64,000 nt of DNA from Asterochloris sp. CNOR1 (taxonomy: Eukaryota > Chlorophyta > Trebouxiophyceae > Trebouxiales > Trebouxiaceae): NCBI GenBank assembly GCA_963969365.1, contig OZ017746.1:3596001-3660000 (forward strand), read 5' to 3'. Below are positions 1 through 49,200 of the stretch, one piece after another. The position numbers and the translations under genes were made by a program. The notes below the pieces were generated by a model, which was not told the origin of the DNA, ran no database searches, and was given only the letters and a program-made list of their open reading frames with translations. How positions within the stretch are numbered: position 1 is the stretch's first letter; the number at the start of each line of letters is the position of its first letter.

Positions 1-3000
1 GCTATCATTGTGATTTTATTCCGCTTGTTGGGTGTTTCTGCGAAGCACTTGAGTGAGGATGTCTCGACGACAGTCTCACAGAAGGAGACCACAGGGTCGG
101 CCACCTTCACCTCCACCTCTGCATACAGCTCCCGCAGGTCCTGCAGGGCAGGCAGGAATCAGATGAGAGCCATCCATGGCTGCGTACACATACGGGCCTC
201 CCTGACATGTCGCAGCCAGTCTGCGGGCTGGCTCCTCCCCACCTTCATGAGGCTGTCCAGGTACATCTCGCCTGTACCCAGAATGGCATGCTCGCCAGAC
301 TCCTCCACCTTGGTGATGGCCAGGGGGTAGCTCTTGTTGATCTTCCTCAGACCTTCCACCTGCACAGCAGCCAGACACCTGCTCAGCTCGAGGCAGTCCA
401 GATGGCAGGCAGGTCGACACTGCTGCTGTGAGTGCCCTCTGATGCCTACCTAAAGCAGGAGAGCACCCAAATTTTGCTGATATTCTAGAACAAAGGCAGA
501 GGGTAACTTCTGGCGGCAGGCAACACAGCTGAGGTGTGTGGATTACTTGCGCCCCATCACCCTCATCTGCAGTATGCTGCCCCAGGGCAGTCGCTGCAGA
601 GGGCTGCAGGTGGAGCAAAGCGTACCATCTTAGGCAGCTCAGAGGGGTTCAGGGGCTCTGTTGCAATCTTCATGACGGACTGTGTCTGGAATTGCAAGGG
701 TCTGAAGATATGGACGTCATAGTCTGTCTGGTCCGGGACCACAGTGGCAGTCTTGGTGATGGTGGCATCGATGCCCTCCAGAAGGACCAGGTTGCCTGCA
801 GCACAGAAGCCGCACACATCTCAGCAACGACCATGCAGCAAGGGGCCCTGTCTGCGCTTGAGCTACTGCCATGCAGCCCAGCCCCCAGGTCAACCAAGAC
901 GCAGCATGTGCAACAGCAGGCTAGGGGCCATGCGGGCTTGCGGGAACCTTGTTGGACAGCACAGGCAGGCGCCCCCAGTGGTGGACGCAGCTGCCTGAGG
1001 CAGGAGCGCCTGAACACGTATGCAGCACAGGACCAGTCTGCACTTCTGCAAATGCCATGCAGAACGTAATCAAATCCGGCGCGCAGCATGTGCACGCCAC
1101 AAGGCAGCAGGCCGAGCGCATGCCAGCTTGCAGACGCCCCATCAGACGCCACAGGTAGGCAGGCACCACGAGCAGGCACCCCCACTGGCACCTGCAGCTG
1201 CCTTGGCCAGAGGCACCCGATAACGCGCCTGGTAGACCCAGGTGGCTGTCACAATGGCAGTGGCGCTGTCCTCCTCATCCTCAGGGGTAAAGCCCTCCCC
1301 CAGCACCCTCACCTGCAGGCAGCCAGGCCTTGAAGGGCAGCTTGCTGGCAGCGTCAGGTGCAGGTTACAGGGCAGCTCTGCACGGGGCAGACAAACAGCT
1401 GGCTCAAGTCTGGCCACGCTGTGACGAGGACGCTACAAGGAGCAGCAGCTGCTGCGGGGCAACAGAGTCGATGCATGGTGACAGGCCCAGGAGAGCAGGT
1501 CTTCTGGAGCGCAAGCCTGGACATGCGCAAGTAGTTGTCACAGCACATGCCTTGTCGCCAGGTTTGACAGTGCCACTGAAGATCCTGCCAAAGGCGTCAA
1601 ACGAGCTGACATCTGGCTTGGGGAACAGCTTGGCGATGTGAATCAGCAGCGGCCCTTTGGAGTTGCAGCTGATCGCATGGCCCACGATCTCATCGTCCTG
1701 GGGCCCAGTGTACAGCCGCCTGACCTGCAGCAGGGCGCACCATCCAGGCATGGCAGCCAGCTCCTGGGAACTGGAAAACACCTTACTCCACTGCAGTCCT
1801 CCGGTCAAGCACTCCCACCAGTCACAGAATAGGTCCGAGCATGAGCTAAAGAGGCGCTGGTCAGCTGACACTTGCGTTTGCAGTGCCTCCAGGTGTCATC
1901 TTTGCCTGCTTGTTTTGGCTGGCATTTTGCACCAATTAGCAAAGCATTCTTAGGCCAGATATGGCCTAGCAGGTGTCCAGGCACCCACCTTGGCCTCCTG
2001 GCCTGCATGACTGGAAGGAACATGCTGCACCAAGAGGTCCACCAGGCCGGTTGCTGTGCCAAAGATGGCGCAGCAGGCGTCCTTCAGGAAGGGCTTGATG
2101 TCCTTGCGGAAGGCAGACGGCTTGAGGGCTACCCCAAACTCGTCCAGCATGCGCTTGACCACGCTCTCATGCTCGCCTAACACCTGCAGACCATGCAGGC
2201 AGGTGCATGACTGCAGCTGCAGATGATTGCATGCCTTGAGGGCTGCACAATCGCTACAGGGCGAGTGCAGTCAATGACAAGACTGCTGAGGGGTGTGATG
2301 CCCAAGCTCTGGCTGGCATGCGCGTGGCCGCACAAGTATCTCACTTGCAGAGTGCAGCAGGCGCACAGCTGCCAGAGGCATACTTCACCTGGCTAAAGAT
2401 CTTGTAGAGGGGCTCCAGCACAAATTGCACGAAGGTGCGGCTGGAGCCAGGCCCAGTGGGCGACTTCTTGAACTTGCGCGTGTCTGGGTTGAAGTACACG
2501 TCCCCCCACAGGCGCCTGTGCACACATGAAGGCACACAGTAACGGACCAGCATGGGTTGACATGGGAGGCTCTAGGCAGCAAGACCTGCAAGACTGTATT
2601 CTCACACAAGCACTTCTGCATTCTGTCGGCAGTCCCTAGATGAGCCGTAGGCTGCACAAATGTAAGACTCTGCCCTCAGCCCACCTGGCAAACTCCTTGT
2701 GGTCCACAGCCACGCCATACACATCGCAGTAGAGCTTAGAAAAGGACTCCAGGGTGAACGACCATCCATACAGGGCTGAGGAGAAGGCAATGTTGCCCTT
2801 GATGGGGTCCACCTGCAGTAGCAATGTGGGTGTAAGTATCGCCGACTGCTGTTGAGCCAGCAGTGCCAAGATGCATGTACCTAGGCTGTGGATCAGGCAG
2901 CTGTGAGGGGGGTTTGAGTGCTGTTGGGCTGCAGGCAGCAAGCTCAAGAGCAGAGCAGCATTGTTCTGACCTGCAGCTTCTCTTCCCCGCCGCCGTGGGT

Positions 3001-4900
3001 GAATATGAGGGCGTTGATCTCGTCAATGATGTGGCGGATCTTGAAGTAGGCATCCCCTGGCGGGATTTTCAGCTCAGTGATCAGCCTGTCCACCTTGCTG
3101 ATCATCAGGCTGATGGGCAGCCCCTCCTGGCAGGCCTGCTGAATGGCCTGCAGAGAGGAGGACAGGGTGAGCAGTCCGCACAGTTGCAAGCACGCTGTCC
3201 AGCAGCTGCACAGCAAAGTATCAGGGCCACAGCACAGGGGGGCGGGAGAAGCACTCAGCTCCGAGGGTGTAACAGCTTTTGTGAGGCACATGCTGGAGAT
3301 GTCAGGCAGGCTTCTTGCCAAGCAGCCCCTGCTGGAGATGTCAGGCAGGCTTCTAGCCAAGCAGCCCCTGCTGCCCACCTTCTCGGTAACCAGCATGACG
3401 CCCTCCACTGCGTCCACCACCAGCAGCACGCCGTCTGCCAGGCGCATGGCTGCCGTCACCTCATCATTGAAGTTAATGTGCCCTGCAGGACGATGGCAGT
3501 GTGAGCCCCAGCTAGAGAATGCGACGACACTGCTCCGAGCCTGACAGCACTGACCTGGCGTGTCCAGCAAATTAACCAGGTAATGCTTGCCCGTACTGCC
3601 AGGCAGCACCAGGGACATGGGCATCATCTTGAGGCTGATGCCCCGCTCCTGCTCGTCCACTCTGCAAGTCACATCGCATCACATTGCATCGATCTGCTGC
3701 GAGCGGGCTGGCGCTACATAAGCCAGCACCCAAGCTTGCTGGGGAGCTCACCTGGTGTCTGTATAGCGCATGGGCCGCTCATTGCTACGCCACTCATACT
3801 TCAAGTCATGGGTCTGCTCCACAAGCATGTCCATCAGCTGCAGGGCAGCCCATCATGGTGTTAAGGCCCAATCAGAGGTCACTGATTTGAGTCAAGCCAA
3901 GCTATTGGCGCATGTATGGCTCACTGGCGAACACAGCAGTCATGTAGCTAGCCAGGATGTCACCACTGCAGCTGTCCAGCAGTCACAGTGATATGTGGCC
4001 TCACCAGCGTCTTCCCGTGGTGCAGGTGGCCCACGACAGCCACGTTTCTGATGAGCTCAGGGTTGCCTGTAAGCCCAGCCAGAAACTCATTGCTGTAGTG
4101 GGTGCGCAGGGGCTCCTTCTCTATATTATCAAAGTTCTTCTGCTTGATGGGCGCAATGATGGGCACCTCCAGGGGCTGGGCGTCCTCCTCCATCACCAGT
4201 GTCTCTGTCTCCTGCCACAGCAGCAAACAGGGCTGTAAGGTGGAGGCGCAACGGGAATTGCTGTGACATCTGCACCCGTGCTGCAGCCCTGGACACGCCT
4301 TGATCAGGACTGCGACACAGAGTAAGTCCTCTGCCATCAACAGCCCACAATGCCACAACAGTTTGAGGCTGTGCTGCAAAGTGAGCATGGCAGCAAGCAG
4401 GCCTGCAGTCCTGGCAGCCTTGCTGCAGGCACAAGCGTATATGTTCTTCGGACCCACCTTGCCGTATACCTCCTCTGCAGTGGGGTAGTACTTTTTGTCC
4501 TCGTGCAGCACCACAGCAGTCTCCAGGTTCTCCTCCTGCTCCTCATCCTCCTCCATGGGCACACCGTCAGCCTCATCCCCTGCAAATGGTGCTGTCAACA
4601 GGTGACCGCTGTGTGAGACTTGCTGGGACAGATTGCAGTAACGCCTCAAGGGGAGCTGGCATGCCTGTCATGCCCAGCCGCCTGTTGGCTGCCTCCTCAG
4701 CTGCGTCCATGTCCAAATCGTCCTCAGGCGCATCCTGCTCCTCCTGCATACAGTAGCCATGCCATCGGTGACACAGCACACGGTGCAGGCGTGGCCTGAT
4801 GCTACGCAGGCCACAGCATGTCTGTCATCTGCACCTCATCACTGTCTGGCAGCTCGGGCCCAACATAGTTCCCAAACTCATCATAGAGCTCCTCATCCAT
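1..4900 (-). CDS. SNU114: U5 snRNP GTPase Snu114/EFTUD2 (CLO/GFL), 3' end outside window
   Basis: EF-2-like GTPase of the U5 snRNP that controls the Brr2 helicase during spliceosome activation and disassembly. The start at 4900 opens with [17 protein letters not shown], the family's conserved N terminus. Exon 1 is 4835-4900; an acidic region follows (about 4743-4500). G1 is GHLHHGKT near 4020-4045, then [10 protein letters not shown] (about 3630-3660), DTPGHINF split by an intron at 3483-3554, and SKVDRL near 3090. Later exons match EF2 domains [15 protein letters not shown] near 1715, YDVHIFRP near 700, [12 protein letters not shown] near 260. At the left edge the frame still reads [17 protein letters not shown], so the last roughly 200 residues lie outside. 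Introns are many and short. The G4 motif has Ser where most members have Asn. Identification is secure; minor exon edges are not. Confidence 0.93.
3148..3378 (-). other. Intron of SNU114, 231 nt, stopless and a multiple of three
   Basis: It separates the exon ending VMLVTEK from the exon starting AIQQACQEG. The donor reads GTGGGC and the acceptor CTGCAG on the minus strand. Homologues join these two peptides directly, which supports removal. Read in frame it would add 77 residues with no stop. It contains the 39-bp tandem duplication listed separately. Confidence 0.8.
3292..3369. repeat. 39-bp tandem duplication inside a SNU114 intron
   Basis: Two adjacent 39-bp copies, 3292-3330 and 3331-3369, begin gctggagatgtcaggcaggc and differ at one base. 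They lie wholly within the 231-nt intron, so they change intron length by a multiple of three but not the mature protein. Confidence 0.95.
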
Positions 4901-33893: not shown

Positions 33894-36192
33894 ATGCTGG
33901 ACCAGCAACAGCAGGCTGGCAGTGCCGCTTGGCAGCAGACCTCCAGCAAGCTGCTGCATGCCGTCAGCCTGCCAAGCTCGCTTAATGCGGCCCCACCCGA
34001 CAAGCGACCTGCTAAGCTGCTTAGCACCGCGGCCCAGGACGGCTGGCTGGCAGTCAGCACGGGCAGGAGCCTGTGGGGTGGTTGCATTGAGGCGCCTGAC
34101 AAGCTCCACCTGAGCAGGTATGCCTCCAGTCGTTCAGTCCACAGTCTGCAGCAATGCAGGACACTTTAGGAACCTCAGCTTGTCAGCAGCGGCTCGTTCA
34201 ACAGCTAAGTCCCTTCTGCATGATCGCAGTTCACCACGCCATGTGTGTGCTTCCTGCAGGCTTGACTGGCCAGGGTGGCCCATCACAGGGCTGACCCTTA
34301 GCAAGGCGCCGAGCAGCTCCCCCAGCCTGCTCGTGCTGGCAGACTGCACTGCAACCATTGGACAGCTTCAGCCAGCTGCAGAGCCCAACCCTCAAACAGA
34401 CCAGCGTGCCTGCAGCTGGGCATTTCACACAGCTGACCCGGTGCCGGGGGCACCCTGTGTTGCAGCGGCTTGGCACCCTCAGTCTCCCCATATTGCCGCT
34501 GTTCTGGCTGGCAGGGAGGTCTGTATCATCATGAATGGCAAGCCTCTAGCTGCGGCCAGCCAGCCCATGGATGCTGAGGAAGCGCCACCACTGCTGATGA
34601 CCAGGATCACAGCAACCCCAGAGGTGCCTGCATCATCAGGGCAGCAGCCCTGCCTCGCTTGGGCCGGCCTGGGGCGGCAGCTGATTGTCAGCTGGGGCAC
34701 CTACACAGAGCTGCTCACCTGGCAACCTGACAGCAGGGCCCGTGTGAGCACCGTGCATCTGTCCAGTCCAAACCTACACCCTGGCAATGGCTGCCATGCT
34801 TGTTGTGCTGCTTGAGCTTCATGGCCTGCTGACTCACCTCATTGGCTGCTCAGCAAGAGTCACAGCTTCACTACATGTATAGCACCAGGCCCGACATGTG
34901 ATCCTCCTTGCCTCACAGGAGGAGCTGTGGCAGACCCTGCTGACCCAGCCAGCCCGGCACGAGCTGTTGGCAGGCGAGTCAGGCTTTGTGGCCATGGCCA
35001 CCACCAGCTGGGGCGAGGTGCTGGGCACAGTTGCTTCGCAGCTCGTATTTCTGGAGGCAGGGGAGCAGCAAAGCACCCAGCAGTCATCAGCTGACTCAGA
35101 CGATGCCTCCGTCGGTGCTCTTAACAGCATTGGGGCAGGCAGTGCTGCTCCTGGAACAGGCGGGCCCCCCTTGGCAGGCCCAGAGGCCGTCCCTGCCAGC
35201 CAGAGTGGCACCAGCAGCATCAGGCCCGCGCCAAGTGACGGGACAGATGGCGACGTGGTGGATCTGCGGGGCAGGCTGCACCATGGTGGACCTGCGGCCA
35301 GCACGCAGCAGCTGCTGCTTCGCAATGCAGAGGAGGTCTCTGTGCCCAGCATGTTCCTCCTTGGCAGCCAGCAGGCAGCAGAAGCTCAGCAGCAGCAGTG
35401 CCTGGAGCAGCAACTGGGGCCGGCTGCGATCTCAAGCAGAGGCTGCTCAAAGCTGTGCCCCGCCAGAGTCTGCCTCATGCTGGTGAGGCAGGCCGCAGGT
35501 CCCCGCAGCCATGCCACAGCGGAGTGCGAGTTCCTGCTGCCAGATGTGCTGGAGGTGAGACTGTGCAGCATGGCAGGCCTGCAAGGTGTAGGGCCAGCCA
35601 GCACGTTTTGCTTGCTTCCTTTATGGTCTTAGGCACCAGCAGCACTTTAGATACACAGCGGCAGCTGTGTTCTGGCGTGCAGGTGATGGAGCGCACCGTG
35701 GTGGTCACCAGCAGTCACTTGCCCGGCCTGGTGCTGCTTTATGGCATCAGTGCTGGCAGCATCTTTTCGCGACGCCGCCTTGCGCTGGAGCCTTCGCCGG
35801 CTCTGCCTCTGCTTGGCTTTGGACTCCTGCTCCATGCGGTCCAGCAGCCGACTGGGGAGCCCTATGTGCAGCTCTTAGGCCTGGAACTGACCCCAGAGCA
35901 CTGCCCAGAGAGCACCAGCAGCATTTTTGGAGGAAGGAGCCGAAAAGCAGCTGTCACGGGGACTGGACAGCAGCTTGGTCTGTATGACCTGGGCGTGCTG
36001 GAGCTGGAAGATGCAGCAGCACACCTTGTCCAGCCTGTCGATTCTTTGCTGGCACTCACACAGCTGGCAACGCTGTCTGCACTGAGCCAGCTGCAGCATG
36101 TCAGCAGCCTGAGCAGTTTGCACTTCTTGAGCACCTTGAGCACACTGTCCTGTCTGAGTGCCCTGAGCATGCTATCAAAGCTATCCGTGTAA
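33894..36192 (+). CDS. WDCP-like beta-propeller protein with Leu/Ser-repeat C terminus
   Basis: Resembles WDCP (WD repeat and coiled-coil-containing protein); function is unknown in algae. The start at 33894 (MLDQQQQAGSAAWQQ) is uncertain. Propeller-like blocks: LDWPGWPITGLTLSKA (34260-34310), CVAAAWHPQSPHIAAVLAGR (about 34455-34515), CLAWAGLGRQLIVSWGTYTE (34650-34710), ELLAGESGFVAMATTSWGE (34960-35020). A Ser/Gly/Ala-rich linker follows, then CLMLVRQAAGPR and VVVTSSHLPGLVLLYGIS (35695-35750), whose order parallels human WDCP. Then comes a segment with SIFGGRSRK and a tail from 36055 with Leu at nearly every third residue. Four or five exons; stop at 36192. The family call rests on remembered similarity of block order, not an alignment. 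Confidence 0.5.
36055..36189 (+). repeat. Leu-Ser-X tripeptide repeat tail
   Basis: The last 45 codons of the WDCP-like gene read as repeats of Leu-(Ser/Thr/Ala)-X: LTQLATLSALSQLQHV, then SSLSSLHFLSTLSTLSCLS, then ALSMLSKLSV. Leucine sits at nearly every third position. Codons differ between units, so the protein pattern is under selection or old rather than a fresh DNA slippage product. Confidence 0.85.
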
Positions 36193-36592
36193 AGGCTGTC
36201 CACAGTCTGGATGGCATGTCATCATTGGTATTGTACAACAATGAATGCGCTGCTGTTTCTAAGCTGATGAGGGCTGATTGCAGAGTAGCAATACTAAAGC
36301 AGAGCCTTGGGGGTTCATGGTCATTCAGGTGCCGGCCGGAATGAGGGGCCCAGCCGTACACTGGGATTGCGACGTTGAGATCCACCGTATGTGTGTTGTT
36401 GACCATCTGTTGCTGGCTAGATGAGAGTGATGCTCAAGCGCGCTTGCTGTTGACATTTAGAATAGCCCTGTGGGCTCAGAGCTCTGGATTGTCCTGGCCC
36501 TGAACGGCTATACAAGCTCGTGTCTGGCTGGCTCTCGGTCAATACAGTATGCTCAGCTCCAGTCATTGAGAGGTGTTGGCGGTTAGCATCGG
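36193..36592. promoter_or_regulatory. Intergenic region upstream of the modular LRR gene
   Basis: 400 bp with no conserved coding segment. A TATACAA motif at 36509-36515 lies about 78 bp upstream of the ATG at 36593, similar to the TATA-to-ATG distance at the ALDH gene. It is a weak TATA candidate. Confidence 0.35.
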
Positions 36593-39500
36593 ATGGCCAC
36601 ATGGCTGCTCCTTGTCGTTCTGCTAGGCTCCCAGACAGTTGCTGATGGACTTACAAGGCCAGATGACGGGCCCCCTTCATTGGGGGGCCAGCCGGGCTCT
36701 AGCTCAGCCCCTGCACCCTCAGATAGCCCTTTCCTGACACACCGCTTGCCTCATGTGCCCATCAATATCCCCACGTCAAGCCTTGTCCCGGCCCCATGTG
36801 ACCATTGCGGGGAGCCACACTGTCTAAGCTGCAGCAATTGCTTTGCTGAGGCCGCTCAGCAGGGCGATGTGAGGGTGCAGGAGTACCTCATGCGCAATGA
36901 TGCCAGCCAAGGCGCCGTAGTGAGGCTCAGCCTGGAGGTGGGACAGCCAGCTGCAGCATGGCACCCTGCTCAGTGCTGAAGCAGCGGAGTGTCGATCAGC
37001 AGGCCGATTTGGTGTGCCTGTGTCACATGCCAATCGCACAAGGCCAAGCTTAGGCGACTGAGCAGTCACAAACCTGCTAAGCCCCGCACAATCATAGGCT
37101 GAATCTGCGCTGACTCTGAGCTCGTCATTGCAGATTGCTGTGGACGAGAAGTGTCCAGTCCAGAGTATTAGTCTAAAAATTAAGCAAAAGGCCAGCTGGT
37201 GGCAGCAGCATGCAGCGCCTCTGGAGGCTGGGGAGCCACGCTTTGTGTCGGACTGCAACACACCAGCTGGCACGGCTCCAACTGGCCTGGACAACGTCCT
37301 CCAGTGGAGCTTGACGGGTGGGTGATGCCAGCTGCACACCGCAGCCTGAGCAGCCAATGTCGACCATTCCTATTGCTCTGCACCTGCAGGATCTGCCTGC
37401 CTGATGCACAGCCAACATCAGGTCCAGCAGCCCCTGCCAGTCTGTCACATGTGAAAGCTTAAGGCACAGCATGTTTTCGTGCTATAGACACAATTCACTC
37501 GTCTGCAGGGCCCCCTGCGCCTGCGACACCTGCGTTCACAACACCTGTGCCCGCGCCCTCAGGACCAACATCAGGTGCACTATACATTTTTGATGTTGAA
37601 CAGATGATCTTTGGGCCCAAGGCCACGCCCTTGTTCTTCAAGCACACCGCAGCGGCCACAACTGACCCTTGTTTGGCTGCTGCAGTGACACTGTACAACC
37701 TGTGCAATGCCACCTCAGCAGTTGACATCGACACAACCCTCACTGTCCCTGCCGACTGCTCCTGCTTCGACGTCACCCAGTCTGGCATACATGGCATTTC
37801 CTATAATGCGGACCCCACTCTGGTCACCCTCTTCCAGGGCTCGGGCTGCCAGGCCAGCAATGCAGTCCCTGCTGCCGACAATGCTCAGTGCTTCATGGGC
37901 CACTACGAGCGCCCGGCCACAGATGCATACTGTGACAGCTTCTGTGGCAGCGACCCCGCCCTGAGCAATGGGCTGTTCAGCATTAAGATCTGCCCAGGTG
38001 AAGCTGCCGGCCACCCTTCCTGCCCAGCAGCACACTGTAGAGACTGGGCTCTGCCATGCCTGAGTTAGGCTTTGTCAAGTCTCAGGTCAGGCCAGGACAT
38101 CTGCATGCAACTATGCAGGCAGATGCTGCTGCGCACAGGTCACGAACCATGCCCTGGCCTGCTGTGGCAGGCGCAAAGCGCAGTACAACAGAGCCAGTAT
38201 GAGGCCATCTGACAGTGAGCTGTCCCTGCTTGTGCAGGGACACCACCACCTTCAGAAGGTCAGTTTGCATGACTAAGCCTGTGCAGCAGCAGCCCTGCGT
38301 CGTGCTCACTCCTCCAGCGAGGCAGGGTGTGGCTGCTAAAGCAGTGTGTTGCTCCGTTACAGCTCCTGCTGTGAAGGAGTGGTCCTCGTTCCTGACAGTG
38401 CTTGCCTGCAGCTACAGAACGCCGCCAGCTGAAAGAAGCAGACCCCAATTCCGCTCGTGTCCCCATGAGCAAAGTTCCACCCCCAGGTGACCAGCTTCTG
38501 AGTTGCTTGAAAGTTGCAGCCCATCTGCAATGAAGGCCCCGTGATCTGCAAAGTCCTCAGCAGGAGGCTGGCCTGCCTGCAGCTGCACCCGGTGTCTCTG
38601 CTGCCCAGTCATTGTTTCAAGCTCAGCCTCCCGTCTGACTGCTTGCCCCATGACTGCACTGCAGTGCCACAGGACGCTGCAGGCAATGTCACCTTCTCTG
38701 TGCTGCTGATGGATCTGGACGAGGCAAACTGCACTTCCACAGTGGAGGCTGCCATCCTGGCGGCCATCGAGGACGCAGCAGGCACTAACACCACCACATC
38801 AGTAAGCTTCAAGCCTTACAGGTGCGGCCCTTGCTTTGAGTGGCCGGCGTCCCAGCATCATGCAGCCAAGACCTGCACCAGCTGCCTGCTGTAGGACTTG
38901 CCAGAGAAGTCAAGATGCATATTCTGCACGGCTGGAGCACAGGCAGAGAGCAGACCTGAGAGCATATGTGAGCCATGCTGCGTGTACCACCCGCCAGCCA
39001 CCCCACCAGCCAGTGCTCGACGCAAACTGGTTTTTTCCTGGCAGGAATGGGGACGATGGCAAGCCAGAGGGCATTGCTGTGCTGGCAACCACCACCCTAT
39101 GGTCGGCTGAGCAGGCTGAGGAGCACCGCGAAGCGTTCTCACGGCAGCTGCAGCAGAGTTCGCGCTTGTGCGGCATGCTGCCAGGGCACGAGTGCAGCAG
39201 TCTGAGGCTGCTGTCCCTGAACGGTGTCTGCATGGAGGCATGCAGTGAGAGCAACTGGTTGCGTGGGGACGATGTCCAGCCCTCTGCGCTTTCTTGGTGC
39301 GAGGTGCCAGACCAGGCATCAGGTGGGCTCACCTGGGCCTGTGTGTGCAGGCGTGCAGGTCTGCAGCTCTGCCAAGCAACAGATGCAGGCTAGTGACAAG
39401 CCTGCTGCAGGCTGCATGAGGGTTCCTTGTCGTTTTGAAGCTGCAGCCTGTCTTGCGCGTGATTTGCTGGAGCATACCTAGCCTGTGAAAGCTGCTCAGC

Positions 39501-42500
39501 TGCAGGCAGTCCTGATGTGCAACTCCTGACTGGGCTGCCCGCAAAGTTTTGTCAGCGATGGTCATGCCGCACATGCACTCAGCTGCGGCTGAAATATCTG
39601 CTGTGCATCTGTGGAAGTGCTGATGCTGCACCTGAACTCAGCTGTAGCCAATTGTCATGATGCAGGGTACCACCACATCATCCACTACGTGCGCTGGTAC
39701 GAGGAGTGGTGGGAGGAGGATGACAGGTGAGGTCCCTGGCTGCTGGCCTGCCTTGCTGTGTTGTCACCACCACATTCTGTGCTGCACTAGCTGCTGGCTG
39801 GCTTGCTGCTCTGCTGCTCCTGCTTTGCCCCCATCACCCAGAGTGCATGCAGCACAGCCCTTTCAAAGTGGCTGAATCATCACCATTGCATGCAGCTGCT
39901 GGAACTGCCAGGAGCTGGTTGCTCCTCAGCGGGAAGCTGCTGCTGAGGTCCAGGTGGCCTGGAGAGGCAACTTTGCAGCAGGCGATGTCTTTGCTGGGCC
40001 CCAGGACCTGAATCTCGTCGATCTAGACCAGCAGAGCATTGAGCTGGACGCCATTGAGGATGACGAGCCTGCCATCATGTGAGGGAAATCATGCAGACTG
40101 CATTTGACAGGCTGTACCATTCTCCTCTGCTTCGTTTAAGGTCCGAGAAGCGGCAAGCCTGCTCACACTATTGGTGCTAGTATCTGCTGCACCTCCTCCG
40201 GCCTCCACTGCCCTCTTTACTTATTGAGTCCTTGTTCGGCTGCAGGTACATTCTTACCACGGCCTGCGGGTGCAAGTACGGCTACCTCCTGCGCTGTGAG
40301 GTGCTCAGCAAGATGGAGTGGGACTGGCCATGCCTGCCTAAACCCCAGGGAGGTGGGTTCCGCCGTACCTCTGCTTGTGACTGGCTGTCTTTGTGTCTCT
40401 TCCCTAACCTGTTGTTCGCAGCAATGCCACATAATTGTTCTGTGGGGCAGGCCCTGAGCAGCCACGCAATGCTGTGGGACACTTCAAGATCAAGCCAGAC
40501 CCTCGATGAAAGCTGTGCTGACAGGTCGCCGCAGCTACCGCCAGCTCACATTGCTGGCTGTCTTGCCCAGGGATCATCACGACTGCAGTCGCTCACGCCC
40601 AGCACTGTGACTCGCAGGCTGCGAGGGTCGCAGCTCTCCTGCTGGGCAGGGCTGGCGCAACGGCTTTGGGCACCTGATTCCCACATGTGAGTCACTGGTG
40701 TTGCATGCCAGCTGCTACTTGCCAGCTGCTCCTTGCCAGATATGTTATTTCTAAAGCCAATGAGGAGCATGTAGCAGCCTGGAGGATCATGTGCTGCTGC
40801 AGGCACCTCCTCCCCCCTCTATGTGCCGAGCAACCCGACAGGCTCCACAGCTGCGCCAGACACAACGCCTGCTTACATGCCGAGCAACCCGACAGGCTCC
40901 ACAGCTGCGCCAGACACAACGCCTGCTTACATGCCGGGCAACCCCACAGGCACGACAGCTGCGCCAGGATCAACGCCTGCTTACATGCCAAGCAACCCAG
41001 ACGGCTCAACAGCTGCGCCAGGCACGACGCCTGCCTATATGCCGAGCAACCCCACAGGCTCAACAGCTGCGCCAGACACAACGCCTGTAGCCTCGTCAGC
41101 CGGAGGCTGTGCAGCAGGTGCAACTTACTCGCTGTCCTTTCTGTCAACTTTGTGTGGCTTTGTCCAACAGCGCCAGCAGGCCTCACAACACATCCTCCCT
41201 CTCTGCAGTTCCAGTCACGCTGTACAACCAGGGCGACAGCACATCAGCATTCGACTTTGGTGCAATCATCAGCGTGCCAACTGACTGCATGTGCCATGAC
41301 ATCAGCCAGTCTGGCACCTCTGGCGTGTCATTCAGTGCTCCTCCCGGAGCCACAGTCACGCTGTACAAGGACTTTGGCTGCCAGCCCAGCATGGCATTCT
41401 TGGCTGAGAATAATGCCCAGTGCTTCAATGGGAACCACGAGCTCCCCTCAACCGACTCCACTTGTGACAGCTTCAGTGCCAGCAGCTTGCAGGCTGCTTC
41501 ACTGAACGACAAACTGCACAGCATCATGATATGCTCAGGTAAGCCTGCTCACTCATGCTCCTGCTCACTAGCAAAGGCCTTGTACTGATACCATGATGCT
41601 CAAAACCTGTCCTGTGCACGGGCAGCTGAGCAACGCTATAAGGGCAGACGTCTCTGCCGTGCTACAAGCCAAGTACTGGAGCTGGCAACTTTGCTGCTGT
41701 TAGTGCTGCAGAGGGCTGCATTGGTGATACCCCAGAGGCTCCCACACAGCCTCCCAGCTCACAGAACGCCACTCCACCGCCAGGCCCCTACATGCCAGCC
41801 CTCCCAACAGGGTCCACTTCAGCACCAGGTGAGTGACTGGTCAGAGCCAGCACAAGCACAGCAGCCAGGTCAGCTCTGGCTGGCACACTACATATGTGCT
41901 CAAGTCGTCACATTGCCTTTCCTCTGCAGGGTCCTCAGTGGCTACGCCCACAACAACTGCTGCGCGCCCATCGATGACATCAGGTGCAACAAGGTGTTTG
42001 GGGCACCCAAAGGCGTTCACTGTCCTTGGAGGCCATTGACTGGCTACCACACTCACCCGTGGCTGTGCTGCTGCAGTGACACTGTACAACCTGTGCAATG
42101 CCACTTCAGCAGTTGACATCGACGCAACCCTCACTATCCCTGCCGACTGCTCCTGCTTCGACGTCACCCAGTCTGGCGTGAATGGCATTTCGTATAATGC
42201 GGACCCCACTCTGGTCACCCTCTTCCAGGGCTCGGGCTGCCAGGCCAGCAATGCAGTCCCTGCTGCCGACAATGCTCAGTGCTTCATGGGCCACTACGAG
42301 CGCCCATCCACAGATGCATACTGTGACAGCTTCTGTGCCAGCACCCCTGCCCTGAGCAACGGGCTGTTCAGCCTGAAGATCTGTCCAGGTGAGGCTGCCA
42401 GGTGCACTGCGCTGCCCAGCTGCCGGGCGGAGGCTGGATGTGGCCTCTGCCAAGCCTGCGTCGGCTTGTGCCTGTCGACCCACAGTCGCCGCCTGGCTGC

Positions 42501-45421
42501 AGGCACAGTGACGTGCCCCAACCCAACAGCTCTGCCAGACAGGTCTCTGCCAGATATCATCAGCGACCTGCCGGAAATCAGCGTCAACATTGAGACCAGC
42601 ATCACCCTGTCAAACAGGATGTGCGGCATCACCGAGGTAGGCAGGCGGCTTGCACTTCGACAGGCAAGAGGTGGCTCTGAGTGGCAGCTGCTCAAGAATA
42701 ACTCAGCGCTCTGAAAGCTGCACCTGAGTTCCGCTGTGTGGTGCAGGCAGCTGTGGCCCCCAGGTCAGGCGCCCTGGCAGGCGACATGTCTGTCACACCC
42801 GGCCTGGGCATCACGTTTGACACTGGCTCAGCAATGGTGGGGCATGCCATGTTTGTGATCTGAAGCACGTAGCTTGCTGCAGCTGCCCTGCTGCAAGGCT
42901 TCTTGGTCCTGTTCTGCTGCACTTGCCTGTGGGGCGGAGTGCATCAGCACAGAAATGCCTAGCACCCAGCCTGCTTCTGGTATTGAGCTGCCCTGTGTCC
43001 TCCTGCCACGCAGTTCGCCATGCTGAGCTGATCTTTGCCGGCCTATCTGTACTGCCCCATGCCTGAGAAGCTGTGCTGTGTCTCTAGGTGGCGCTGGAGC
43101 TGCATGCATCGCTTGCGCCTGGCTCCTACATGGGCACCCTGGAGGTTGACTTCATGGCCACTTACAGCGCATGTGTCGCCAAGCACTACAGGCAGCTGGT
43201 GGTTACACAGGCCATTGAGACTGATGACAACATCCAGGCCGCTCTGACTGCTGCCTCATACAGCAACGGCACTGTGATTCTTACCTTTGGGGTTGACATT
43301 ACACCAGGTGAGACGATGGACCTTCGACAAGTGCTGTGCGCCCCTGCAAACGTGGCATGGTATTTCTTGCCATGCTCGAAGGGAGAGAAACTGTTGAGGG
43401 AGCCCTTTGTCCTGCTGAGTACTGCCGCCTCGGCTCGGCGGCTGATTGCCAGTCTTGTCGCCTCTGCCTTGCAGCTGAAAGCATGGACAGTACTTTCCGG
43501 GCCCTCTTCCAAATGAAGCAGCACATCGACCCCTTCCGGCAGCAGCTTGCCTGGGACCCCACGCAGATGCCTTGCCACTTTGAGGAGGTCACTTGTCACA
43601 ACGACACAGGTAAGAGCTGCGCAGGGCACCCAGGCAGCGCTCCCAGGCACGACAGCACTGCGGCAAAGCTCCGCGTGCTCTGTGTGCACAACACAAGGCC
43701 TGGCATTGACGCCCCCAAGCTGGCATGCAGGTGCTATGATCTCTTTCAGTGTGGCCAGCAAGGGTCTCTCAGGCCGGCTTCCAGATAACTCAAGCATCTG
43801 GGAGTCCTTCTCTGAGGTTGAGAGCCTGGACTTCTCAGGCAACAGCCTCACGGTGAGAGCTTTGCGCCAGCTGCTTTCCGTTGCTTTTAGCTGGGCAGCA
43901 GGCCTATCTTGGGACAAGCAGTGCATTTCTTCTTTACCTGAATGAGAGGCGCATGTCAGCAGCTTAAGTGCAAATCCCCACCTGCCACAGCTGGCATGTT
44001 ATCAGCTCAAGCCCACCACTAGGATTGCATGAGCTGCAGGGGAACTTGCCCACAAGTCTGGCAACGCTGCACAGGCTGACTTCCCTTCACTTCGGCAGCA
44101 ACCAGCTGTCAGGCATCCTGCCGCGTGCATTTCTGGTGAGCACGTGACAGCAGAGTGGCCTCCCTTCATGGCACCCCTGGCTCCTGACCCCGGAGAGCTT
44201 GCTCTGCAGTGCAGCCCTCACCGCCCAGTGGGCCTGCCACTCGACTTTGCTTGCAGGCTTCGCCCGCACCGTGCTCACTGCTCAAGCTTGATGCATCTGC
44301 AGGCCCTGCCAGGGTCTGCAGTCATCAACCTGAGTGACAACCAGGGGATGTGCGGCGGAGTCCCAAGGCCCCTGGCCAACAAGCTCAGCCTGAGCCGCAA
44401 CGTGAACAGCTTTGCCACTCCATGCCTGAACAGCCCAGTCTCGTTCTCCCTGGCTGGTGCGAACTTTGTGGTCCTCAAGCTGGGCTCTCAGGTGAGAGCT
44501 TGCTGGACTCCCTGCTTCAGGGCGCCCAAATCTGTGCACTGGCTGCTGGCACTCAAGATCACGATCGCACCATCTGCTGCACCAAGCCCCGGGGTGCTGC
44601 CAGGCTGCTGCAGCACCTGCTTCTGCCACTGGTGCGGCAATGTCACCTCTGCTCAGCAGTACATAGTGCTGCGTGGCTGAGGCATTGAGGCTTACTGCCA
44701 ACTGCCAGCCATGCTGAGCTGTGTGCCCTCCCTTGTGCAGGACCTGTACACAGCAGCCCCTGCCCCTGTGGGCCTGGAATACTTTGATGCCACCGACTAT
44801 GTGTATACACAGGGGACGGCGCCATCATTGGGAATTCTGCTGTTGAACGACGTGGCATTGCCAAGCGCTGGCACGTGAGTAGTTCCTGAGCTGGCGGCTA
44901 CCTCAGACTGACTGCAGCCTCTGATAGACAGGGACGGTCTGACTGTGCCGTGACACCAGTAGCAGGCAGCTGTGCTGTGCCACCGGTAACAGGCAGCTGT
45001 GCTGTGCCACCGGTAACAGGCAGCTGTGCTGTGCCATCGGTAGCAGGCAGCTATGCAGACATGGCACAGTAGCCAGGCACACAGCAGCCAGGCACACAGC
45101 AGCCAGGCACACAGCAGCAATGACAGCCCTAATGATGCAGCTGACTGCATCATCACAGCTGACTGCAGCTCTCCACTGAAATGAACACGCCCCTCAGCAG
45201 CCACAGCAGTCATGCAGGCTATGTGCTGCTGCTGCCTCAGTTGCATGGCAGATGTACCTGCACACCGTCTTCAGCTGTTGTGGCGCCCTGCTTGCAGATT
45301 CACACTTGCTGACTTGCTACTGGGTCACGTTACCTACTCCAGAGGCAGCTCTGCCACCTCTGGCACTGATGTCTTTGACATTGAGCGGACAGCTGGCAGC
45401 ACAGGTGTGGCACAAGGCTGA
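36593..45421 (+). CDS. Secreted modular Cys-rich LRR protein, novel repeated module
   Basis: I know no exact homologue. The ATG at 36593 opens a signal peptide (MATWLLLVVLLGSQTVADG). Exons supported by matching splice phases: 36593-36937, 37134-37317, 37509-37574, module 1 37686-37997, 38412-38486, 38665-38821, 39045-39322, 39666-39726, 39896-40078, 40246-40352, repeat exon 40803-41117, module 2 41209-41538, 41711-41830, 41930-41983, module 3 42077-42388. Further exons run from about 42503 to 45421. Modules are about 104-110 residues with 6-8 Cys. Past 43480 lies an LRR N-cap (LAWDPTQMPCHFEEVTC) and short LRRs (LDFSGNSL, LHFGSNQLSGILP, INLSDNQGMCGGVP). No membrane anchor or kinase is visible, so it is probably extracellular or cell-wall. 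Two adjacent genes cannot be excluded, but the phases join throughout. Confidence 0.65.
37686..37997 (+). other. Module 1 exon of the secreted protein (phase 1-1)
   Basis: A 312-nt exon flanked by phase-1 introns. It encodes VTLYNLCNATSAV, PADCSCFDVTQSG, VTLFQGSGCQASNA, DNAQCFMGHYE and AYCDSFCGS, ending KICPG. It has eight cysteines. The two VTL(Y/F) strands followed by Gly-Cys suggest a compact beta-sandwich, possibly Greek-key, but no family assignment is claimed. Confidence 0.7.
40820..41090 (+). repeat. 54-bp (18-residue) coding tandem repeat
   Basis: Five units start at 40832, 40886, 40940, 40994 and 41048. The unit is approximately NPTGSTAAPDTTPAYMPS, with variants NPTGTTAAPGS and NPDGSTAAPGT. 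It fills one phase 1-1 exon (40803-41117). Pro, Thr, Ser and Ala dominate, which suits an extended, perhaps O-glycosylated wall-type linker. A related sequence (PYMPALPTGSTSAP) recurs in the exon 41711-41830. Confidence 0.9.
41209..41538 (+). other. Module 2 exon (diverged copy, phase 1-1)
   Basis: A 330-nt exon flanked by phase-1 introns. It keeps VPVTLYN, PTDCMCHDISQSG, VTLYKDFGCQPS, NNAQCFNGNHE and STCDSFSAS, ending MICSG. It has six cysteines: the Cys of NLC and the last Cys of CDSFC in modules 1 and 3 are both missing here. Confidence 0.7.
42077..42388 (+). other. Module 3 exon, about 94% identical in DNA to module 1
   Basis: A 312-nt phase 1-1 exon. I count about 18 differences from the module 1 exon. 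A block of 113 bp (42193-42305) is identical to 37802-37914. It ends KICPG like module 1. The preceding Pro/Thr linker exon (41930-41983) parallels the one before module 1 (37509-37574). Confidence 0.85.
44935..45118. repeat. Two intronic minisatellites
   Basis: Within the last intron of the secreted LRR gene. About four units of 27 bp, of the type ccaccggtaacaggcagctg plus gtgctgt, run from about 44950 to 45055. Three exact units of 15 bp (agccaggcacacagc) lie at about 45070-45115. Units are contiguous with no unique spacers. Confidence 0.85.
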
Positions 45422-46282: not shown

Positions 46283-49200
46283 TCAGTATGCACCTGCATA
46301 GTCCCAATACTGCTGCAGCGTCCTCTCCTGGCCCATGCCATAGTAGCTGTAGCTGAACTCCGACTCGTCTGTGTCTGTGGGCTTCAGCTCATGATCAATA
46401 TTGAGGATGTAGCGGGCACGGGCATTGCTCTTCTGCTGTACATGCCACCAGTCCTCAGGCCTGTCCCCGTAGACGTTGGGGTTGTCCTTGCGGTTATAGT
46501 GGTGCCACACCTGCAGGGAGGCACGTCCAACAGTCAAGGGGGCAGGGGCATGCAGCAGGGGCATGCATCCAGCAGGCCCAAGCAGGCATGCGCCCTGCGC
46601 TGATGTTCAACCCCACACACTTACAGCAACACATGCAGAGGTGCTGGCAGCATGCTTGTCAAAGCAGCAACTTCTTGACAGGCGTGCCCTCGCAATGTGG
46701 AGGGCTGGTCCTCTGCTGTCACAGTGCAGGCAGCGGTGGTGGCAAGGCGCTGGACATGGACGGTGTCAGGGGTGCAGAGCAAGAGCATGCTGCACAAAAT
46801 TGTGAGCAGGTGATGTGCAGGGACGTTGTGTGCTCACCAGGTTCTCATCTGGGCTGAAGATGTCATAGCCATGGGTCCACATCCTGGCAGAGTGCAGGAT
46901 CTCCTCACCCACAAACATCATGTCAAGGTTAGGGTCTGCAGTGGGAGCAGGCCTCCAGGTCAGCGCACGGTTCTGGTAGAATCATGGCCGCAGCACCAGC
47001 CTGAGCACAGCACAGCAACACAGCACAGGGGCGCAGCACAGAAGCGCATGCCTTTGCGCACCACTCACCAAATGGAACCTCCAGCAGGGACTCTCCAGGC
47101 GCAAAGATGAAGCCTGCCCCTGCAGCATGGCAGCGCACAGCTGGGCAATGAGCTCTGGTGGCTCGAATTTGTGCAGTGCACCTTGTGCTGCGTTCACGCC
47201 TCTGCAGGCAGGAGGTGGCACTCCCAACACAGGTTCCAGCATGGATGGGGCTCCACAGCAGTGGCTGCAGCAGCCTCACCTGTGAAGGGAGTGGGCATGA
47301 ACTGCCCAATCTTGACATCATATGCCAGGGGAGCAAAGGATGGCAGCTTGCTGCCTTCATCCCAGTGGGACTTGCAGATGAGGACGACAGCATTGCCCTC
47401 CTGATCCCAGGAGGGCGGGTAGTGGCTCAGTGCACACTTTTTGGACGGGCACCTGCACAGCACATGAGCAGGCAGTCCAACCCAAGAAGAACTTATTCCA
47501 TACTGCAAGCAAAGAGCTGCATGTGCAGACACCAGGCCTTGCGCAGACCACCCCTGTGCTGCAGTGGCCTGCTGCGATGCGCCCCAAGCATCGCTGGCAC
47601 AGCAGCAGTTGGAAGGCACTCAAGACACCAGAACAAAACAGTGCCGGCTTCTCATGAAGGGGGTGAAATGGAATTGTGGCTACCTTCAGCACGTTCCAGC
47701 CCTGTTGGCACTGGGCCGATGCACAACAACCTGGCGATGTATCAAGCACACCTGGAGGATGTCAGGCAACAAGCGCCCCACCTCTTGTACATTTCAATGA
47801 CCCGATCATCCCACCCCTCCACAAGCTTGCTGTGGCTGTCGATCTGCATGAAGTAGTCCTCATTCTTGAACAAAGACGCTGCTGTGTGGCGGGCCACGGT
47901 GGGGCCTTTGGCCTGCAGGGGCACACAAATCATTTCAGCTGAGAGGGGCCATGCAGAGCTCATGCTGCAGAGGCACTGAATGCCTGCTGCTGTGTTCTGT
48001 GCTGGCTGGGGTTGGCCCGGCGCCAGAACGGCTCTGCTGTTAAGGCTAAGGGTGGAGGCTGCTCACCACATGCCTGCTGAAGTGCTGCCCGCAGCTCAAT
48101 ACAATGGCAGCAGGCCCAGACATCCTGTGCTGTGCTGTCTGCAGGCCTGGCATTGCTGCCCTGTGCTGAGGTCTGCTGTCAGAGAGCGATTGCACCAGCT
48201 TGTCCCTGCTGAACTGCTGGCTGCTGGTGCTAGAATCACATGTCTGTGGTCTACCGCAGACCTCCCCATGCAGTGCGCTGCCAGCTGCGAACCTAGAGTA
48301 GACTTTGCAGTCATTAAGTAAGGTCGTACAACGGCGCACACCATGCAGCAAGGCAGAAAGCTGGTAGGCACAGGCAATGCTGTGGCTTCTGGACATCCAG
48401 ATATTGTGCAGCATGTCTCACCATGAAGTAGGGAACAGTGACGACCTGGATATTCCCGCTGTTAGGGGTCTCCCTGGTCACGCAGGCCTCATGTGGCAGC
48501 TTGATCTGCTGGACCACGGCCGCATGCACACGCTCAGGGTGGCTGGCGTTCAGCATGAGGCTGTGCAGGGTGTCGCTGCACTCAGGATCCCTGCAGGTGG
48601 AAGCAGAAGGTGCAGACGAGCCTGGCTGAGGCTTGCACAGGCCAACAGTAAGGGGAGACAGCTATGTCAGGCTGGCCTCTAATATGTGGCTGCTTCTGGC
48701 AGGTCTGGCATGGGCACAACCTCAAGCCTGTGTGGGTGGATTGTGCTTGTCGATCTGGCAGGCAGCATGGTAAGGCTGCCACATGGCTGCCTCACATGAG
48801 TGGCTGCTGCTGAGAAGTCTGATATGATGCACAACCTGCCTGATCAATCATAGTCAAGTGACCAGTGCTGGCAGCGCTGGCAGGGAGCAGGGCGCTCAAA
48901 TGGCTGGTCACAGTGGCATGGCTGCTGCTGGCAGCTTCAACAGCAAACACAAGCTTGGCTGGCTCAAGTGGCTGCTTGGATGCTCATTCCTGCTGCTGTG
49001 CCCTGCAGATGCAGCTCCTGGCAGCACAACATGGCAGCTTAAGACTCACCTGTAGCCTGCGATCGATACAAAGATGGTAGGCAGTCGTGCTTTGGATGCA
49101 GCTGGTGGCTGTGCAGCCTCTGGCTCTGGCTCCCGCACTGGTGGCTGCTGGGGCGCCTGGGCAGCCTGCAGGGCCTGCTCCTCAGCTGTGCGGGGCGTAG

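Follow-up and report, generated by a model that had tools for sequence, protein, structure and literature searches.

A candidate secreted protein with three Cys-rich modules on class 1-1 exons and leucine-rich repeats in the green alga Asterochloris sp. CNOR1

A window of 64,000 nucleotides of Asterochloris sp. CNOR1 (contig OZ017746.1, positions 3,596,001 to 3,660,000) was analysed, and a single gene was modelled on its + strand at positions 36593-45421. It comprises 25 exons and 24 introns and encodes 1386 residues in an unbroken frame; the introns are of the GT-AG type in all 24 cases. An in-frame stop codon at 36584 lies upstream of the ATG at 36593 and the gene's own stop codon ends at 45421, so that the two gene ends of the original prediction proved exact. 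The neighbouring open frames, judged by eye, end at 36192 on the upstream side (+ strand) and at 46283 on the downstream side (- strand), leaving space for a separate gene at 36593-45421. Because the splice sites of the 25-exon model had been chosen by eye, an independent codon-usage check was run, in which each exon was scored against the two other frames of the strand after training on the remaining exons (leave-one-out), exons 4 and 16 being scored without their near-identical sister exon. The assigned frame was preferred in 23 of 25 exons; another frame scored higher in exons 5 (21 nt) and 15 (54 nt). The gene is made up of the following parts (LRR, leucine-rich repeat).

36593..36937, + strand: exon 1, start codon, signal peptide-like N terminus (hydropathy peak from residue 2) and 5 Cys
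37134..37317, + strand: exon 2, remainder of the N-terminal region; no other match below E 1.5 in the genome search
37509..37574, + strand: exon 3, Pro/Thr linker of class 1-1, from gene model and composition
37686..37997, + strand: exon 4, module 1, 104 residues with 8 Cys, class 1-1
38238..38486, + strand: exons 5 (38238-38258) and 6 (38412-38486), short linkers of class 1-1
38665..40352, + strand: exons 7-11, central region without family assignment, about 262 residues with 12 Cys
40803..41117, + strand: exon 12, linker of class 1-1 with five 54-nt (18-residue) Pro/Thr repeats
41209..41538, + strand: exon 13, module 2, 110 residues with 6 Cys, class 1-1
41712..41983, + strand: exons 14 (41712-41828) and 15 (41930-41983), Pro/Thr linkers of class 1-1
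42077..42388, + strand: exon 16, module 3, 104 residues with 8 Cys, class 1-1; DNA 94.6% identical to module 1
42503..43307, + strand: exons 17-19, region without family assignment
43475..44491, + strand: exons 20-23, LRR N-terminal cap-like stretch and leucine-rich repeats, from Pfam and PDB alignment
44741..45421, + strand: exons 24-25, C-terminal stretch with sub-threshold Cadherin_3 likeness, and stop codon

The lengths of introns 11 (450 nt) and 24 (423 nt), the longest of the gene, might indicate that two adjacent genes, one for a module protein and a separate one for an LRR protein, had been read as one. This is considered very improbable, as the frame stays consistent across the 24 introns, intron 11 has modules upstream as well as downstream of it, and from module 3 to the LRR exons the four intervening introns measure 110-251 nt; nor was a signal-like start noticed on casual inspection past exon 1. 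Under the single-gene model, the hydropathy of the protein (means over 19 residues) was highest at residue 2 (1.48) and next highest near residue 1331 (1.38). The maximum at residue 2 supports a signal-like start where a signal peptide had been predicted, and judging from the same means the protein probably has no strong membrane span.

Pro, Ser and Thr together account for 51-71% of the residues in five of the 25 exons, i.e. linkers 3, 5, 12, 14 and 15, all of which are of class 1-1, as had been claimed for the Pro/Thr linker exons. Exon 6 is of class 1-1 too, but holds merely 32% of these residues. The repeats of exon 12 form a tandem array at 40803-41093, and exon 14 carries one unit similar to them. 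The central region, which was absent from the original prediction, gave no match in NCBIfam, PHROGs or viral contigs.

The three modules of 104-110 residues were found as predicted, each on one exon between phase-1 introns (exons 4, 13 and 16). At the protein level, module 2 is 50% and module 3 92% identical to module 1, and the genome search recovered the modules within the gene at E values of 1.3e-24 and below; judged by alignment identity and these E values, they are true paralogues. The number of Cys is even in every module, six of them being invariant across all three. The two additional Cys (positions 7 and 87 of module 1) are both present in modules 1 and 3 and both missing from module 2, and this joint presence or absence predicts an extra disulfide in modules 1 and 3. 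VTL(Y/F) opens both halves of every module, and the end of module 2 reads LNDKLHSIMICSG.

The module had been left unassigned to a named family, and no significant match was found in the Pfam, NCBIfam, PHROGs, PDB, phage, plasmid, viral and prokaryote sets. Pfam, searched with each module (HMMER filters on), and NCBIfam, searched with all three, gave nothing at E up to 10. No match was obtained in PHROGs with modules 1 and 2, in phages and plasmids with module 2, in viral contigs with the modules, or in prokaryote contigs and PDB sequences with the module profile. Module 2 alone matched one PDB sequence, an outer membrane protein, at E 1.4, which was taken as chance. A confident match to a known family was thus looked for and not found. 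As far as these databases reach, none of them being a general eukaryotic protein collection, the suggestion that the architecture is undescribed holds. In the literature searched, no account of such an algal module was found. Within the alga's own genome (56,383,464 bases, 56.4 Mb, 21 contigs), three matches were obtained at E 0.001, all inside the module gene; the search scores the best candidates only (5 and 4 here), so distant copies could escape it. A fourth match, obtained with module 2 at E 0.077 (L019), appeared by eye to be a coiled-coil gene and was dropped. The N-terminal region (next match E 1.5), the central region (next match E 0.165) and the C-terminal stretch likewise matched the module gene only.

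Because of the VTL(Y/F) starts of the module halves and the NDKLHSI end, the crystallin Greek key was tested. The module might be a double Greek-key domain of the beta-gamma-crystallin type that has diverged, in which case module 2, unlike modules 1 and 3, would carry a calcium-like N-D-x-x-x-S motif; we hold this as a tentative possibility, clearly below an even chance. The yardstick comprised 11 rows, two of them bovine gamma-B domains and the other nine archaeal and in part repeats of one another; the archaeal rows were drawn from the 7 genomes that gave a match among 294, and HHalign retained 7 of the 11 rows. Against these rows the three-module profile scored 20.2, with the last 23 module columns placed on the end of the Greek-key motif. 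This score was reached by none of 200 column shuffles (maximum 15.6), of 35 other protein segments and of 40 separate shuffles, nor was it reached by the reversed profile. The score of module 1 alone was also reached by 0 of 200 shuffles, whereas for module 2 alone 4 of 200 shuffles did so; module 3 alone aligned at a different place. HHalign, however, gave the module/crystallin pair a probability of 7.5% over 23 columns, compared with 91.0 and 97.7% for two crystallin-crystallin controls. PF00030 was included in the Pfam search that, up to E 10, returned nothing for the three modules; it had no match in the alga's own genome and matched 2 of 14 control genomes. The internal two-fold repeat of the module was not significant (P 0.35 and 0.14). 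The crystallin calcium motif has the consensus (D/N)(D/N)xx(S/T)S; by eye, module 2 reads NDKLHS, which fails at the fifth place, and modules 1 and 3 read SNGLFS. What the module may share with the beta-gamma-crystallin family (PF00030) is a Greek-key end strand, while it differs in having no significant sequence match, six to eight Cys and a longer second half. Structure prediction of the module, proposed earlier as a check, yielded no fold: AlphaFold gave a pLDDT of 44.4 for module 2 alone and of 40.6 for module 1 with three rows, and neither model was usable. A Foldseek search with the model of module 2 returned 114 matches at E up to 10 (best 0.97), those among the best 50 of the 114 being mostly dUTPases, an outcome read as meaningless. 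The Greek-key hint of the original prediction is reflected in the weak signal at the last strand, but neither in the internal symmetry test nor in the structure models.

Comparison of modules 1 and 3 shows 17 base differences over 312 positions, with a dN of 0.044 and a dS of 0.103, the latter value depending on six synonymous differences. In ungapped ten-base windows moving outwards from exons 4 and 16, the numbers of identical bases were 10, 5, 5, 2, 2 and 3 on the 5′ side and 9, 5, 3, 1, 2 and 3 on the 3′ side, so that identity drops to five of ten or fewer from about 10 nt beyond the exon on both sides. MAFFT alignment of the flanks gave 58% identity upstream (134 of 231 aligned, linker included) and 56% downstream (61 of 109). 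A gapped global alignment of the introns, at 85-87%, was set aside on account of cheap gaps. The introns beside the two modules scored above all of 500 mononucleotide shuffles each, but a stricter all-pairs control removed most of this signal. After trimming of the splice consensus, intron pair 3/15 ranked 103 of 276; pair 4/16 ranked 1 of 276, its raw score being tied with that of an unrelated pair. With a dS of about 0.1, one would expect neutral introns of equal age to be about 90% alike, which introns 4/16 and 3/15 are not. Introns being unlike and exons alike, exons 4 and 16 would last have exchanged sequence in an exon-sized event. Either gene conversion between diverged copies or late insertion of a single exon may account for this event; the two appear about equally possible, with conversion at most slightly favoured. 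The loose likeness of the linkers, a comparison made without a control, suggests an older duplication.

The phase statistics were calculated from this gene alone: phase 1 occurs in 14 of 24 introns (P 0.010 in a binomial test against one third), class 1-1 accounts for 10 of 23 internal exons, where shuffling of the gene's own phases gives a mean of 7.6 (P 0.054), and symmetric exons of any class number 14 of 23 against 9.3 expected (P 0.019). With 10 class 1-1 exons against 7.6 expected, the 1-1 pairing would be mostly a product of the phase-1 excess. Exons 4, 13 and 16 each coincide with a module and have phase 1 at both ends, as class 1-1 modules do. Modules and linkers thus lie on the class 1-1 exons that are described as a hallmark of exon shuffling in the available part of PMC8001218. 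Classical shuffling, in which the module would have arrived from another gene via intronic recombination, is nevertheless judged improbable. No second gene with the module was found in the alga's own genome, where its three places all belong to the module gene (best candidates scored), and recent intronic recombination should have brought intron sequence along, of which none is clearly shared. As a variant of shuffling, an old transfer may have taken place from a source that has since been lost. The module matches are confined to one gene, which demonstrates copying inside the gene; transfer between genes was not seen. Of the exon shuffling originally proposed, the copying of class 1-1 exons within the gene was hence retained and the movement between genes was not. 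Exon duplication with late homogenisation is the best reading of the exon and intron sequences and appears to fit them better than shuffling.

The predicted LRR domain passed the Pfam cut-off in exons 20-23; it is not terminal, however, as about 100 residues without family assignment come after it. With the exon 20-23 piece, LRR_1 scored 29 bits (cut-off 20.6) and LRR_8 29.2 bits (cut-off 27), and with the full protein LRR_1 remained over its cut-off (22.6 vs 20.6) while LRR_8 fell under it (26.3 vs 27). Two repeats pass Pfam LRR_1 and about four can be recognized by eye. The LRRNT_2 cap reached 18.2 bits against a cut-off of 20.7; the piece aligned to the plant receptor GSO1 over query residues 10-149 of 163, from the cap-like stretch on. 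Searching the PDB with it gave 136 distinct sequences at E <=0.001. The plant LRR ectodomains GSO1, SERK1 and BAK1, among the best 60 of the 136, have in common with it the cap-like stretch and LxGxLP repeats, whereas the algal protein has no kinase match in Pfam and no clear membrane span, and its LRR lies downstream of modules and linkers. In exons 24-25, the Cadherin_3 / CSPG repeat (PF16184) stayed at 12.7 bits against a cut-off of 25.5 (E 0.13), and a genome search with PF16184 gave no match anywhere, controls included. Nine PDB matches of the C-terminal stretch, at E 0.34 or worse, were taken as chance. Intron 24 holds a minisatellite of 27-nt units at 44943-45050. Pherophorin (PF12499) was not among the Pfam matches of the protein, and its genome search was silent, as it was in 14 of 14 controls. 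A green-algal origin of the DNA is suggested by its composition, by the style of the introns and by the plant-type LRRs.

The LRR part also had weaker matches elsewhere in the alga's own genome, the best at E 3.9e-9 in region L033 (G000:C10:2733500-2743400). On the minus strand of this region, a signal-like start, LRR frames and then a Pro/Ser-rich frame of more than 700 residues were observed, perhaps representing one LRR-extensin-like gene. When the full protein was compared with L033 by tblastn, the LRR match was not recovered and only an unrelated match at E 0.78 was obtained, so that the presence of secreted LRR plus Pro-rich proteins in this alga is at most likely. L035 gave no tblastn match to the full protein. 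In L034 (G000:C14:1093500-1103400), secreted-looking LRR frames were followed by GGA(I/V)-type repeats, which we take to resemble bacterial Pmp-like beta-helix repeats. LRR-extensins and LRR plus Pro-rich chimeras are a known class of wall proteins. With these, the product of the module gene shares the combination of an LRR with Pro/Thr-rich tracts in a single protein of secreted appearance; it differs in that the linkers are short and broken up by Cys-rich modules and that the LRR is on the C-terminal side.

On balance, the locus probably contains one gene, whose product would be a cell-wall or matrix protein that is secreted and probably glycosylated, whose module copies arose by exon duplication within the gene and whose modules 1 and 3 later became alike again. 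In such a protein, the three modules, beta-rich and disulfide-bonded, would be kept apart by Pro/Thr linkers, and a partner would be bound by the short LRR of plant type towards the C terminus. The copies would arise when a class 1-1 exon is duplicated, an event that does not disturb the frame, and a later exon-sized copy or gene conversion would make modules 1 and 3 alike again. Secretion, glycosylation and the disulfides of the modules are predictions from the sequence; the analogy to LRR wall proteins leads to the guess that the protein functions in adhesion or recognition. The product is best read as an orphan glycoprotein of the LRR plus Pro-rich kind, belonging to the extracellular matrix or serving in recognition.

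It is also conceivable, though we rate it as rather unlikely, that the module represents a new green-algal extracellular domain family whose class 1-1 exon cassette multiplied in an organism that is probably unicellular, the copies being kept alike by exon-bounded gene conversion. If true, this would be a counter-example to class 1-1 modular assembly as a metazoan affair; the available part of PMC8001218 asks why Metazoa alone show exon shuffling. As far as metazoan class 1-1 shuffled modules are described there, the algal module has in common with them the coincidence of exon and module, phase 1 on both sides and the (predicted) extracellular location, but it occurs in one gene only. The module finding alone overturns nothing. 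In a different alga, Trebouxia sp. A48, with a genome of 69.1 Mbp, 53 of 103 predicted secreted proteins were without functional annotation, according to the available part of PMC12712428. Algal secreted proteins are poorly annotated. With its three copies and clean exon borders, the orphan module is a good structure target, and the gene would be useful to test class 1-1 exon copying in extracellular proteins outside animals. Elsewhere in the window, at 2944-4667 on the - strand, frames resembling a spliceosomal GTPase were observed, presumably Snu114/EFTUD2.
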